A DNA stretch of 64,000 nucleotides from an uncultured Campylobacterota bacterium. GTDB lineage: Bacteria > Campylobacterota > Campylobacteria > Campylobacterales > Sulfurovaceae. Shown here in pieces: positions 127 to 6,918 of this stretch. The position numbers were made by a program, and so were the translations under genes. Within the stretch, counting starts at the first letter, position 1, and every line of letters begins with the position of its first letter. The stretch lies in NCBI GenBank assembly GCA_937141405.1, contig CAKZQQ010000005.1, forward strand, positions 682,001 through 746,000, in the 5' to 3' direction. The notes under the pieces are model-generated. The model searched no databases, had not been told where the DNA came from, and was given only the letters and a program-made list of their open reading frames with translations.

Positions 127-1110
127 CTATAGGCTAAGTACCTTTTTGTAGTTACTATAGAGTGGATTATCTTTAGGGAAATACTCTAATATTGCGCCGA
201 TATAACGATCAAAAGGGTTATTGATTTTCGAGAGTGAAAAACGCTTTTTATAAGGAAGATCATAAGAGTTCAATACCATAGTAAAAGGCACCGGAAAATC
301 CGTAGCAAAAAGTAGTTTCTCGTGGATTTGATGTTGATGGCTCAAATGGCGAAGCACTTTAGCTCTCACGGGAGTAAGAAGTGCAGAGATATCTGCATAG
401 AGATTATCATAATGCTGAAGCATCTCAATCAATTTAAAGTACTCACTATTGTAATGTTTTGGATGTGACAAAATCGCCTTGTGAATTTTGAGCGGGGAAT
501 AGCTCAGTGCCATATGTGCGGCAATGACATTGACACCTATCTCTAAAGGCTGTTGTAGCATATCGATAGATTCGCAATGTTTGATAGAGTGCACACTACT
601 TTCACTACCTATATGAATGATGAGTGGGATATTTTTTGCTTTGAGTTTCTCAAAATAGGCTCTATAGCGCTCTTCATTTGTGTCAACACCCCAATAGTTT
701 TGTAAAAATTTTGCCCCTTTAAACCCTAGCTCATGATATCTATCTATCATATCAAGTGCATCGGGTCGCATAGGGTTGATAGAGAAAAACGGAATGATGA
801 TATCCGGATGTGCCTGATAGACCCCTAACACATCCTCGTTAGTTGCACAAACAGTTTGATCTTTGTGGAGCACCCTCCCCTTATCATCAACACGAGCATC
901 AACACCAAAGAGTACACTATGAGAGAGGTGCATAGAAGAGCGGATATTATGCGTGAGTGCATCAAGATAAGCCTGATAAGGTTCCAAAAAAAGTCTTTTG
1001 GTATCTATCCCCATTTTTTTACCGAGCACCCGAAGAGCAGCACGATCATAAAAACGGTTGAAACGCACTTCACTACTGAGTAGGTGAACATGCATATCAA
1101 CCGTTTGCAT
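127..1110 (-). CDS. Amidohydrolase-family (TIM-barrel) metal-dependent hydrolase
   Basis: Predicted cytosolic hydrolase of the amidohydrolase-2 type. The DMHVH motif just after the start, IIHIG and AAHMAL in the middle and ATDFPVP near the C-terminus sit where this superfamily carries its metal ligands and catalytic Asp. Substrate is unknown. A longer frame opens at 1161, but the ATG pair at 1113/1110 is preferred: AGGAG lies at 1122-1118, seven bases before the second ATG, and the domain begins there. The start overlaps the stop of the upstream lipid fusion gene (TGA at 1099-1097), so the two are probably translationally coupled. No function in lipid turnover can be read from the sequence itself. 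Confidence 0.8.
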   Translation of the reverse strand: MQTVDMHVHLLSSEVRFNRFYDRAALRVLGKKMGIDTKRLFLEPYQAYLDALTHNIRSSMHLSHSVLFGVDARVDDKGRVLHKDQTVCATNEDVLGVYQAHPDIIIPFFSINPMRPDALDMIDRYHELGFKGAKFLQNYWGVDTNEERYRAYFEKLKAKNIPLIIHIGSESSVHSIKHCESIDMLQQPLEIGVNVIAAHMALSYSPLKIHKAILSHPKHYNSEYFKLIEMLQHYDNLYADISALLTPVRAKVLRHLSHQHQIHEKLLFATDFPVPFTMVLNSYDLPYKKRFSLSKINNPFDRYIGAILEYFPKDNPLYSNYKKVLSL

Positions 1111-4100
1111 CATGAAGCTCCTGTGCCATTTTTTTTGCCTCTTTGAAGTCGCTTTTACCACTTGCTAGTCTAGGTAATTCCTTAACCTGAAAGAGCTTAC
1201 TTGGTTGCATAAGCGGAAGCATTTTACTCTCCTTGATAGCTGAAGTGATATCCTCTCTTGGAAGATCACTTTGATAGAGTAAAACTATCTTTTCACCTTT
1301 TTTCTCATCTTCAAGACTCACAGCAATAAGATCAACACTTCCGCTAAACAATTTTTCAAGCTGTTCTTCAACACTGCTTAAGCTTATCATCTCGCCACCT
1401 ATTTTTGCAAAACGGCTATAACGGCCTGCTATGGTGATAAAACCATCACTATCAACATGCCCCTTGTCGCCTGTTTTATAATACCGAGTGCCGTCTATTT
1501 TTACAATTACCTCATTCGTCTTTTGTGGCTCCCTTAAATACCTCTTCATAACTTGCGGTCCACCGACAATGATAAGTCCGTCTTCACCCAATGGAAGCTC
1601 TTCATAACTTTGCGGATCAACAATCTTAACGATAGTTCCCGGGAGTGATTGCCCCACCGTGCCAACCTTATTACCAACGATGAGTTGCATAGAATCTAAC
1701 TCTAGTGCATCAGGCATATTGACTGAGATAACAGGCGATGTCTCTGTAGCGCCATAGCCCTCATAAATATCGATTCCAAATTTCTCCATAAAAGATCTTT
1801 TAATCTCTGGTTTCAATTTTTCAGCACCTGCAACAGCCATACGGATACTTTTAAACATTAGAGGATGCAACTTTGAACTTTTTGCATAGAGTCTAAAGAA
1901 TGTAGATGTCCCAAACATTATAGTCGCTTGAAAACGCGCTGCAAGTTTACCGATAGCAAAAGCATCTGTTGGATCGGGAGCGCTCACCATGGTTACCCCC
2001 TCACAGAGAGGCAATAGAGTAGTGATTGTCAGTCCAAATGAGTGAAAAATCGGCAAAGAATTTAAGATCACATCACCATTTTGAAAATTAAGCAACGCTG
2101 AGGTTTGTTTGATATTTGCCAAAATATTTTTATGTGTCAACACAACTCCTTTTGGACTCCCCTCGCTACCACTGCTAAAGAGAATTGTTGCTGTATCCTC
2201 TACAGAGACTTTTTCAAAATAAAGCATCTCTATCATCCATGCAGGCATAAAGTATGCTTTGAGCAATGGGGCTAACTTTTGAAGTTTTGTAAAGCCTCTA
2301 TTGAGCTCTTCTATCATTACTGTCTGTTTATTTGAAATATCTGAGAAGTTAAAGCCTTTTTGACTCAGTTTTTTTGTAAACTGCTCTGAAGTTATTATCG
2401 TTGTAATGTGCGCTTTAGACAAAGCGCTGTTTGTCGCCTCTTTGCTGAGTGTATAGTTAAGATTGATGGGACACTTTCCAACAACTAATAGCGCCATATT
2501 AACGATGGTTCCTATAGCAGATGCCGGCAATATTATGCCGATATTTTGATCCGGCAACCTCCTAAACTCTTTTGCAAAGAGTAGCACGGCACTCAGCATC
2601 TTCGCATTGTTGAGATTGACGCCCGTTGCATCAACAACAGAGCGTTTTAAGAGTTGTCCTTTTGCACGATGAAGCCAGCTATACTGTAGTGGTTGACACT
2701 TAGAAAGTTGTGCATCCCATGTCTTATATGAGAGTGCCTTGACTGCCTGTTTTACATACTCAGCCGTTGTATCCGACGCCAAAGGTTCACCGAAGCTTAC
2801 CACAACATTATGCTCATTCCATGTTTTCGTCATCCTTTTAAAACGATCTTTTGCCCTAGAAAAGGTTGATCCCCATAATCCACAGATATAAAAAGGAATG
2901 ATTGGGTGAGTGCTATCCTTCATGGCAACTTCATAGCCTTTTCTAAATTCACTCAATTGTCCGTTGTAACTGATACGTCCTTCCGGGAAAAGCGCAACAA
3001 CTTTACCCTCATCCAGACGAGCTCGTATCTCCTTTATGGCATCTTTGCCTGAGCCTCTTGAGATAGGAATAACATTAAAAAAATTAACAAACCATCGGAT
3101 GTACCATTGATCATAGATACTTTTCGCCATAACAAACTTCACCGCACGAGGAGAAGCGACTTGAATCACAAGCCAATCAATCCAGCTAATATGGTTACCA
3201 AGCAATAACACGCCTCCACTTGGCGGGAGATGATGTAAACCTTCTACTCGTAATCGATAACTTGTTTTCAAAATAGGAAGCAGTAGAAGTCGTGCAAAAA
3301 GATGCGGTAACCTCTTAATAGCATAAAGACTTCCTACAAGCAGAAGTGTTGCGCTGAGAATAAAAATTGTTGCGCTATGAAAACCTGCTACTATCAATAA
3401 GATGCTACCGGCTAAGAAGAGTATCATGGTCGCATTTTGGATAAAATTCTTTCCGGCAAGGATGGTTCCTAGTTTAGATGCTGGTGCAAAATACTGTATT
3501 GATGCATTGAGCGGTACAGCAAAAAGACCACCAAAAAATCCAAATAAAATACTAGACAATCCCATGGTATAAGGGTTAGTAGCCGTAGTGAACATCAAGA
3601 GCGAAACAAAAAGTCCAATGGCTCCAAGCGGGACAATACCAAGTTCGATATGGAGTCTCGAAGCACGCCCTGCAACCATCGAACCTAAAGCTATACCGAT
3701 AGCACTCGCTGCCAAAATTGCTTGAATAATAACAGCATTTTCATCCCCACTCATCATCTTATAGTGTGCAGGGAATACAGCTATAATAACCTGCCCTATA
3801 GCCCAAAATATACTAAGTCCTATAATGCTCAACCAGATATTTTGATCTGATTTGATATCTTTCATATTTTGTTTAAAATAGCGAAAATTAAGATAATCGT
3901 GAAACTCAAAATGTCCTTGTGGGCTCGCAGGTTTAATTGCCGGGAGTTTGAAAGATAATAAAAATTCGATAATCGATACGATAACCAAAATCCACCCTAT
4001 CGGAGCAATACTTCGCAAGATTGCATCCGGGCTCATCGCACTCACATCATATATACTCTCAAAAACAACCGAAAATGAGATAGAGCTAAAGAGTATAGCA

Positions 4101-4546
4101 GTGATTGTTACGGCCTGCACGACACCATTGGCAGAGCCAAGATTATCGACGCCAAAAAGCTCTTTGATAAGACCGAATTTTGAAGGCGAATAGACGGCAC
4201 TTTGCGCCGCAAGTAAAAAGGTAAATCCAAAAGCAATATAAAAGAGCCCGAGATAATAGCTTAAAGTAATAAGAAGCGTTAATACAATGGCAGCCAATGA
4301 AGAGTAGCGAACTATTGTAATTTTTGAAAAGTGATTACTCAAATATCCTGAAGGGGAAAAGAGAAAAACAAAAGGCAATAGAATCATAGCATTAATAAAC
4401 GCACTTAATATGATAAGTGTATCGCCTTCAAAACTTTTTAGCAATACATTTTGAATAGTGATTTTATGCCCTACATCAACGGCTGCATTGATAAAAAGCA
4501 TAAAAACAAAAGGGATAAACCCCCTAACAACTAGCAGCTCTTTCAT
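1097..4546 (-). CDS. aas: LplT-PlsC-Aas fusion: lysophospholipid transporter / acyltransferase / acyl-ACP synthetase
   Basis: 1149-aa membrane protein with three modules. Residues about 1-415 form an MFS-type transporter like LplT, with around 12 hydrophobic segments. Residues about 430-600 are a PlsC-type acyltransferase with NHISWID (451-457, the H-x4-D motif) and FPEGR (520-524). Residues about 630-1149 are an AMP-forming acyl-activating domain with the phosphate loop SSGSEGSPKG (791-800). In E. coli LplT and Aas are separate proteins that import lysophospholipids and re-acylate them; here all steps are on one chain, which is known from some other bacteria. It follows an 833-nt non-coding gap and overlaps the amidohydrolase start. 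A 22-bp palindrome lies 61-82 nt upstream. Confidence 0.9.
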   Translation of the reverse strand: MKELLVVRGFIPFVFMLFINAAVDVGHKITIQNVLLKSFEGDTLIILSAFINAMILLPFVFLFSPSGYLSNHFSKITIVRYSSLAAIVLTLLITLSYYLGLFYIAFGFTFLLAAQSAVYSPSKFGLIKELFGVDNLGSANGVVQAVTITAILFSSISFSVVFESIYDVSAMSPDAILRSIAPIGWILVIVSIIEFLLSFKLPAIKPASPQGHFEFHDYLNFRYFKQNMKDIKSDQNIWLSIIGLSIFWAIGQVIIAVFPAHYKMMSGDENAVIIQAILAASAIGIALGSMVAGRASRLHIELGIVPLGAIGLFVSLLMFTTATNPYTMGLSSILFGFFGGLFAVPLNASIQYFAPASKLGTILAGKNFIQNATMILFLAGSILLIVAGFHSATIFILSATLLLVGSLYAIKRLPHLFARLLLLPILKTSYRLRVEGLHHLPPSGGVLLLGNHISWIDWLVIQVASPRAVKFVMAKSIYDQWYIRWFVNFFNVIPISRGSGKDAIKEIRARLDEGKVVALFPEGRISYNGQLSEFRKGYEVAMKDSTHPIIPFYICGLWGSTFSRAKDRFKRMTKTWNEHNVVVSFGEPLASDTTAEYVKQAVKALSYKTWDAQLSKCQPLQYSWLHRAKGQLLKRSVVDATGVNLNNAKMLSAVLLFAKEFRRLPDQNIGIILPASAIGTIVNMALLVVGKCPINLNYTLSKEATNSALSKAHITTIITSEQFTKKLSQKGFNFSDISNKQTVMIEELNRGFTKLQKLAPLLKAYFMPAWMIEMLYFEKVSVEDTATILFSSGSEGSPKGVVLTHKNILANIKQTSALLNFQNGDVILNSLPIFHSFGLTITTLLPLCEGVTMVSAPDPTDAFAIGKLAARFQATIMFGTSTFFRLYAKSSKLHPLMFKSIRMAVAGAEKLKPEIKRSFMEKFGIDIYEGYGATETSPVISVNMPDALELDSMQLIVGNKVGTVGQSLPGTIVKIVDPQSYEELPLGEDGLIIVGGPQVMKRYLREPQKTNEVIVKIDGTRYYKTGDKGHVDSDGFITIAGRYSRFAKIGGEMISLSSVEEQLEKLFSGSVDLIAVSLEDEKKGEKIVLLYQSDLPREDITSAIKESKMLPLMQPSKLFQVKELPRLASGKSDFKEAKKMAQELHDANG

Positions 4547-4948: not shown

Positions 4949-5304
4949 TTGCAAAGAGAGCAATGCAACAATAATAAAAAACTATTTTTTAGAAAAGCGA
5001 GGAAAAGAAAAAATTTACTTAATATATTTACTCTTATTTTGATTTAGATTTGAATATCAGTCATAAAAACTACATCAAAACTTGCTATTTATTTGCTTTA
5101 GATAAGTCTTTGCAAAGAGAGAGAAAACTATTTTTTAAAAGAACAAGAAAAAATTATGATTTTTTTTATTTTTGTGTTAGATTTAAGAGTTGTTGCGAAG
5201 GAACTTACTAACCTGTAAGTGACTGAGCCAACTCTCTTAAAGATGATACAAAAAAAGATATATTTGCAAAGTTTATTTGCTCTTGTTTTGATTTAGATTT
5301 GAAT
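4949..5304. repeat. Degenerate direct repeats flanking the 60-nt elements
   Basis: TTGCAAAGAGAG occurs at 4949-4960 and 5110-5121, each followed within about 20 nt by AAAACTATTTTTTA. A 29-nt segment at 5027-5055 matches 5276-5304 at 27 positions, and the second copy runs directly into the 60-nt element at 5298. The first copy contains only the first seven bases of that element (TTTGAAT), so it looks like a truncated third copy. This pattern suggests local duplication and decay. Confidence 0.55.
5182..5241. ncRNA. 60-nt structured element, copy 1 (orientation unknown)
   Basis: Outer stem TTTAAGAG (5182-5189) pairs perfectly with CTCTTAAA (5234-5241). Inner stem ACTTAC (5203-5208) pairs with GTAAGT (5215-5220) around a 6-nt loop. 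The asymmetric internal strands TTGTTGCGA and TGACTGAGC are shared with copy 2. The element is palindromic enough to fold on either strand, so it may act as RNA or as DNA. It could be part of the guaA 3' region, but no T-tract follows it. Confidence 0.5.
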
Positions 5305-5357
5305 GTTGTTGCGAGAGAATTTACTTGATAGTAAATGACTGAGCAAACTCATTCAAA
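5298..5357. ncRNA. 60-nt structured element, copy 2 (orientation unknown)
   Basis: Aligns without gaps to copy 1 (44 of 60 identical). Outer stem TTTGAATG (5298-5305) pairs with CATTCAAA (5350-5357). Inner stem ATTTACT (5319-5325) pairs with AGTAAAT (5330-5336) around TGAT. Relative to copy 1, three outer pairs and one inner pair change on both sides so that pairing is kept. It begins 22 nt beyond the guaA stop on the guaA-downstream side. Confidence 0.5.
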
Positions 5358-5379
5358 GATATCCATAAAGAAGAGCAAA

Positions 5380-6918
5380 TCACTCCCACTCGATTGTTGC
5401 CGGTGGCTTCGAACTTATATCATACACCACTCTGTTAATCCCATTCACCTCATTGATAATCCGTCGGCTGATGCTCTCGAGCACATCATGCGGGACATGT
5501 GCAAATGTTGCCGTCATTCCATCGACTGATTCGACCATGCGCACACAGACGGTATTATCATAGGTTCTATTATCTCCCATAACACCGACCGAGCTGACAT
5601 TAAGAAGCACGGTAAATGCTTGCCAAACTTTATCATAATACCCACTTGCTTTGAGCTCCTCTTGCATGATAGCATCACTCTCTTTTACCAATTCCAGTGA
5701 TGCTTCATTGACCTCTCCCATGATACGAATCGCAAGTCCCGGCCCGGGAAATGGGTGACGGCCTATCATATCCTTAGGAAGTCCAAGCTCAAGTCCTAGC
5801 TTACGTACCTCATCTTTAAATATCTCCTTGAGGGGCTCTATAAGATCAAAAGTCATCCAATCAGGCAACCCACCAACATTGTGGTGTGACTTGATAGTCT
5901 TTGAAGGCCCCTTTACAGAAACTGACTCGATGACATCCGTATAGAGTGTACCTTGAGCTAAAAATGATGTATCTTTGTGTTTTTTTGCCTCTTTATCAAA
6001 GACCTCGATAAATGTCTCGCCGATGATTTTTCTCTTTTGCTCAGGATCGACCACCCCTTTAAGTTTGTTTAAAAAGAGTTCTCTTGCATTAATGCTCACA
6101 AGATCGATACCCAGTATCTTGAACATATCTTGTACTTGCTTGGCTTCATTTTTACGAAGGAGTCCTTGATCGACAAAAACACAAACAAGTTGTTCTGCCG
6201 GGAGCGCCTGAGAAAGCAGTGCGGCAACCACAGAGCTATCAACGCCGCCACTAACGCCGCAAAGTACAACTCCTTCGCCTACTTGCTCTTTAATCTGCGC
6301 GATCTTCTCTTTGGCAAAACTCCCCATATTCCAAGTGCTTTCACATCCGCAGATACTTTTTGCAAAGTTCTTAAGCATCTTCACGCCCTGCGTAGAGTGA
6401 TGCACTTCCGGGTGAAATTGAAAAGCATAAACCTGTCGTTTCACATCCGCTATAGCAGCATAAGGGGAGTTTTCACTAAAACCGATAGCTTCAAATCCTT
6501 CAGGCATAGACTCAACTTTATCTCCATGGCTCATCCAAACAATTGAGTCATTTTCAATATCTTTAAATATATCGGCATCGGATGCAAAAGAGAGTTTTGC
6601 TTTGCCGTATTCATGATGATTTGCCGGAATCACTTCACCACCAAAGTGATGCGTGATAAGCTGCATGCCATAGCAGATACCAAGAATCGGCAATCCAAGA
6701 TCCCAAATCGCTTCATCAGGTCTATACGCATCTTGAGCATATACCGAAGCCGGGCCACCTGAGAGTATAATCCCTTTAGGTGATCTCTTTTTTATATCTT
6801 CTATCTTTTCAGAAAATGGGAAAACTTCACAGTAGACTCCGCTCTCTCTTAGTTTTCTAGCAATAAGTTGTGTGTATTGTGAGCCAAAATCAAGTATGGC
6901 TATTGGAACTGCGTCCAT
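5380..6918 (-). CDS. guaA: GMP synthase (glutamine-hydrolysing)
   Basis: 512 aa, the usual length for GuaA. It converts XMP to GMP using glutamine-derived ammonia and ATP in the cytosol. Residues 1-195 are the class I glutamine amidotransferase, with nucleophile Cys82 in GICYGMQ and the His169/Glu171 pair in FHPEVH. The ATP-pyrophosphatase P-loop SGGVDSS is at 223-229, and the C-terminal dimerisation domain ends in KPPATIEWE. It lies 19 nt downstream of nadB and may share its transcript. The two structured 60-nt elements lie directly downstream. Confidence 0.97.

Follow-up and report, generated by a model that had tools for sequence, protein, structure and literature searches.

What are the two hairpin sequences that stand side by side behind guaA, and why are they there? 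They lie in the 833-nt gap between guaA and the next gene on the same strand, in the 64,000-nt stretch of an uncultured Sulfurovaceae (Campylobacterota) genome that was analysed here and is called the window. The initial annotation placed two 60-nt hairpins in this gap, at 5182-5241 and 5298-5357, and we recovered the same gap-free alignment, with 44/60 positions identical, and the same four compensated pairs between the twins (4-57, 6-55, 7-54 and 23-38). The 60-nt segments are real hairpins, but they form the tips of longer imperfect ones whose paired arms continue outward. The features of the locus are as follows, where R1 is a covariance model of the 42-nt core described below.

5169..5254, + strand: unit 1 hairpin (R1 60.1 bits; fold and covariation analysis)
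5169-5179/5244-5254, + strand: unit 1 outer stem
5180-5181/5242-5243, + strand: unit 1 tandem GA
5182-5189/5234-5241, + strand: unit 1 8-bp stem
5190-5192/5231-5233, + strand: unit 1 3x3 loop
5193-5196/5227-5230, + strand: unit 1 TTGC/GCCA helix
5197-5202/5221-5226, + strand: unit 1 GAAGGA/GACTGA
5203-5208/5215-5220, + strand: unit 1 apical stem, with its loop at 5209-5214
5275..5381, + strand: unit 2 hairpin, its base touching the guaA stop codon (R1 59.3 bits; fold analysis)
5275-5284/5371-5380, + strand: unit 2 outer arms, poorly paired mid-arm
5296-5297/5358-5359, 5298-5305/5350-5357 and 5306-5347, + strand: unit 2 GA, 8-bp stem and core
5027..5055, + strand: relic left arm of a third unit that has decayed (similar relics occur in relatives)
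5380..6918, - strand: guaA, GMP synthase, the host gene; its TGA stop codon (5380-5382) abuts unit 2
1097..4546, - strand: large aas-like ORF (putative name), the next gene on the far side, on the strand of guaA

Against dinucleotide shuffles the two copies fold with z values of -5.0 and -3.8, and 0/200 shuffles equalled either. Two structural statements of the initial annotation did not survive this analysis: a stem difference does break a pair, with T5194 standing opposite C5229 in copy 1 inside the 4-bp TTGC/GCAA helix, and the internal strands taken to be single-stranded consist mostly of two tandem G.A mismatches around two ordinary pairs (GA NN GA / GA CU GA). The relic arm at 5027-5055 is part of a 53-nt repeat that is 79% identical to the left-arm region of unit 2, and the gap holds further degenerate repeats (4978-5023 with 5124-5169). 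No Rfam family reached its gathering score in the window, and the best match at permissive thresholds was a sub-threshold RAGATH-13 match (5275-5384, - strand, 24.9 bits against a gathering score of 80) that spans unit 2 with similar outer arms and is probably a chance match.

A search with the core pattern yielded six true relatives in the family of the window and four in named Alphaproteobacteria and Clostridia MAGs; pattern scans of large collections gave mostly chance matches, and the genomes behind 50 such matches were kept as negative controls. R1 was built from twelve sequences, namely the twins and the relatives found by pattern, with no sequence of ERIC (enterobacterial repetitive intergenic consensus) included. 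The covariance-model search proposed at the outset, run with these twins and ten relatives, did return copies with strong covariation in related genomes. The genome of the window carries four clear R1 copies (the twins and two others, behind ilvC and thiG), and 93 of 175 genomes of its family contain R1 matches, at 1-12 copies each, often in tandem ~90-230 nt apart. Four distant gut MAGs (Alphaproteobacteria, Clostridia) hold 8-18 copies each; within the families of two distant carriers 9/32 and 9/41 genomes were positive, and in the class of one distant carrier only 1/96 sampled genomes matched, this being the centre genome itself, with none in the 95 other Alphaproteobacteria. R1 found nothing in the 50 assorted control genomes. 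The distribution of the element is patchy and R1 is specific. In viral contigs the best R1 matches reached only 28 bits, an equal score shared by eight (L144, L148, L155, L156, L161, L172, L197, L227), and L144, the one examined, folds differently and was rejected as an instance of the element. Two contexts in Clostridia were recorded in passing: one contig (L048) carries an ERIC-related unit and, 5 kb apart, a Gut-1 RNA (RF01706; 268-378, - strand) just over its gathering score, and in one MAG (G178) a unit (L334/L115, 241-281) has phage-like structural genes close by (judged by eye to be portal, scaffold and coat). Identical model scores among several copies in G178 point to a possibly recent spread in that genome.

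The 85 distinct copies so assembled confirm the selection on structure and conserved internal-loop sequence that the twins had suggested. Ten of the 16 core pairs vary on both sides, and double-change cells numbered 105, where shuffles gave 22 and a slid pairing gave 4-13. Four core positions are G.A and always or nearly always non-standard, those shared with ERIC being so in 85/85 copies, and one core pair is G-U in 77/85. Outside the core, the main type consists of an 8-bp stem, a tandem GA/GA, a 9-bp stem with a fixed U-G, a single G.A and ~11 variable pairs. The changes between the twins are ordinary divergence between independent units of one repeat family. These data also identify the strand under selection. 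On the model strand G-U outnumbers A-C by 96:17 in the core and by 20:4, 94:3 and 36:17 in the arms; since an A-C on one strand is a G-U on the other, the model strand is the selected one and runs antisense to the adjacent host gene. It also folds better than the opposite strand in 84/86 copies. This asymmetry fits RNA and single-stranded DNA alike.

The position of the units relative to genes is equally constrained. Among the copies with a gene on the relevant side, 80/84 face a neighbour on the opposite strand, as a rule with the base of the hairpin at the stop codon of that neighbour, and in 66 copies the core lies 25-50 nt from the stop codon. The host genes include guaA, murF, tsf, efp, typA, sucD, purB, rplS and ilvC, with lysS in Clostridia and thiG and petC added by eye; in other phyla the gene is antisense in 26/29 copies, and in one of these it is again guaA. 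To avoid circularity, covariation with the stop codon was scored on folds that did not contain it. Pairing of the extended stem involves the third stop base in 85% of cases, the second in 76% and the first in 33%, against ~40% for the coding sequence beyond. In 50/80 copies the far-end dinucleotide of the element is identical to the final two letters of the stop codon, where 29 would be expected and the highest count in 5000 shuffles was 43; like the other stop-codon counts, this statistic includes orthologous copies, which are not independent. The matches follow the codon used (TAA with AA, TAG with AG in 10, TGA with GA in 5), and in distant phyla the rule holds in 12/17 scored copies with a readable far end. 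Selection on pairing, or template switching from one arm to the other, could also give rise to such a rule.

Arrays at a given gene end differ between closely related genomes in the number and kind of units, with truncated arms between units. Within the genus of the window nine guaA ends were readable, and each has an intact or partly decayed unit beside the stop codon, often with relics farther out. In the relative G006 the guaA end carries a unit of the unit 1 type only, while in the window unit 2 stands between unit 1 and the stop codon. Read on the guaA-sense strand, unit 1 still has AAATC on its far side, which complements the GATTT at the guaA end and hints that unit 1 once adjoined the guaA stop codon; both a gain of unit 2 in the window and its loss in G006 fit. 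No insertion event was seen among the relatives of the genus, where every readable guaA end already has a unit.

ERIC has been in use for typing for more than 30 years. The core resembles the ERIC-PCR primers, and this likeness led us to test for kinship with ERIC, which is present in 5375/5426 E. coli genomes. R1, although built free of ERIC, matches an E. coli ERIC at 23.2 bits and gives 44 matches across 49 enterobacterial ERIC loci (Citrobacter and Pectobacterium genomes), all at the ERIC position. A reciprocal model built from ERIC only, R2, gives 63 matches at E<=1 in 285 kb from the family of the window, at the positions of known elements; taken by themselves the window copies score weakly with R2 (15.1 and 13.3 bits), so that the case for kinship is made by the family as a whole. 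The ERIC set has the same inner G.A pair; the shared G.A positions are non-standard in 24/24 and the G-U is present in 23/24, with a covariation pattern like that of the present elements. ERIC (IRU, RU-1; ~127 bp) shares with them the apical core AGGAGCTTAC...GTAAGTGACT with its tandem G.A and conserved G-U, the apex stem R-Y-N-T-R-C, a long imperfect palindrome in many copies, and a model strand that folds best (-56.8 versus -40 in the E. coli copy). Some long variants (among them L293, L306, L310) resemble ERIC beside the core as well (GTGAGTG / GCGAACG). Longer variants with an extra stem (L314, L323, L306, L307, L293, L310, L319) seem to bridge the main type and ERIC; several of them have GTGAGTG/GCGAAACGAAG as an internal loop.

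The correspondence with ERIC is not complete. The present family has the ERIC core in sequence and structure, by reciprocal covariance-model matches at the right positions, and the form of a multicopy imperfect palindrome in intergenic regions (1-12 copies per positive genome of the family). Enterobacterial ERICs have been described with TA termini and a TA target duplication (PMC2229807, PMC2759123), whereas pairing in the present elements ends between stop bases 1 and 2, with no TA at the two termini. Open reviews limit ERIC to Gammaproteobacteria: its range was given as Enterobacteriaceae and Vibrionaceae in a 2024 review (PMC10969869), and a 2007 study named Vibrio as the most distant carrier (PMC2759123); our copies come from Alphaproteobacteria, Clostridia MAGs and the family of the window. 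Further differences of the present elements are the base in a stop codon, the absence of a TA-ended inverted repeat, an additional tandem G.A, shorter arms, and a single orientation to the neighbouring gene, where ERIC at the 49 loci occurs in both. The placement is shared in part, as 8/49 ERICs end <=6 nt from an antisense stop codon compared with 3 for sense stops, and we found no mention of this in the ERIC literature consulted. Given the range outside that known for ERIC and the differences in termini and placement, we class the elements as ERIC-related and not as ERIC in the strict sense. The likeness may alternatively be convergence on one recognition motif.

Three other systems offer partial parallels. 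Integron attC sites lie 3' of genes, fold from the gene-antisense strand and form arrays that grow beside a fixed site, and the present units are like them in the first two respects and probably in the third; they differ in that no cassette genes lie between units, and by eye no attC consensus was noticed at their ends. REP/REPIN sequences with TnpA-RAYT are likewise short, structured palindromic repeats but measure 20-40 bp (PMC3733652), and the present element lacks their association with a Y1 transposase: with all Y1 subfamilies pooled, 61 genomes have both, 32 the element only, 61 Y1 only and 21 neither (Fisher p=0.25). YPAL (RU-2) of Yersinia, compared by description only, is a palindromic hairpin repeat that may affect the stability of upstream transcripts, yet it is ~168 bp long, makes target duplications of 3-26 bp and is confined to Yersinia and Erwinia (PMC2229807).

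We conclude that the twins are probably two members of a family of non-coding, multicopy palindromic repeats that belongs to a wider ERIC-type group, would spread as a mobile element and would insert at stop codons. The initial annotation, which recognised no known riboswitch or sRNA family, had left the choice between a functional RNA and a protein-bound palindromic repeat. That interpretation is supported in part, in that the element is a palindromic repeat present in many copies and neither a riboswitch nor a lone small RNA. Its position directly after the stop codon of genes such as guaA, tsf, efp, typA, rplS, lysS, purB, ilvC and sucD would also suit a 3'-UTR element of the host mRNA, a terminator-like or stabilising hairpin or an RNase III/E site selected at highly expressed genes, and ERIC at 3' ends in Yersinia is reported in reviews to expose an RNase E site and lower mRNA levels (PMC10969869, PMC2229807). 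For such an element the mRNA sense strand should matter, but it is the opposite strand that has the G-U excess and, in 84/86 copies, the better fold, and presence is patchy even inside one family, so that we regard this reading as unlikely.

A + strand transcript running towards and against the 3' end of guaA, as a small RNA or an antisense RNA, would lie on the strand that is structurally selected, and conserved G-U pairs are typical of RNA. It would, however, need its own antisense promoter each time in tandem arrays behind many unrelated genes, and a non-systematic look revealed no common upstream region, which makes it improbable. The outermost 11-bp arms are wholly different between units at one gene and still complementary, and the strand asymmetry is weakest there (36:17), as would be expected of a DNA palindrome whose self-complementarity is maintained by template switching in replication (quasipalindrome correction) in the absence of recognition or function. 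Correction of this kind should remove the G.A and U-G positions, yet these persist across copies and in part in ERIC, and we hold this reading to be very improbable.

For the mobile repeat family that we favour, the following course is probable. Units would spread as mobile elements of a non-autonomous kind, for which the patchy distribution, the arrays and the relics speak. The gene-antisense strand would fold as a single strand, more likely of DNA than of RNA, and the mismatched apex of this folded strand would be recognised by an enzyme; no mobilising enzyme was found. Insertion would occur just behind base 1 of the stop codon, and the terminal AA, AG or GA of the element would complete the codon, leaving the host gene unharmed. 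Each later unit would use the same gene-proximal site and displace its predecessors outward. The host mRNA would carry the reverse complement as a 3'-UTR hairpin, which may alter mRNA stability as reported for Yersinia ERIC.

The placement on stop codons and the selection of one strand look new, and the placement on stop codons of housekeeping genes suggests an overlooked and widespread way for hairpins to position themselves. A broader picture, in which mobile hairpins over several phyla insert in stop codons in an integron-like manner without cassettes and enterobacterial ERIC is a derived branch that lost the stop-codon rule, is one that we put forward tentatively, as less likely than not. 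The stop-codon rule would explain harmless entry at the ends of essential genes and makes the insertion mechanism directly testable, and ERIC relatives in further groups, with a placement rule and a defined strand, provide new handles on recognition and insertion.
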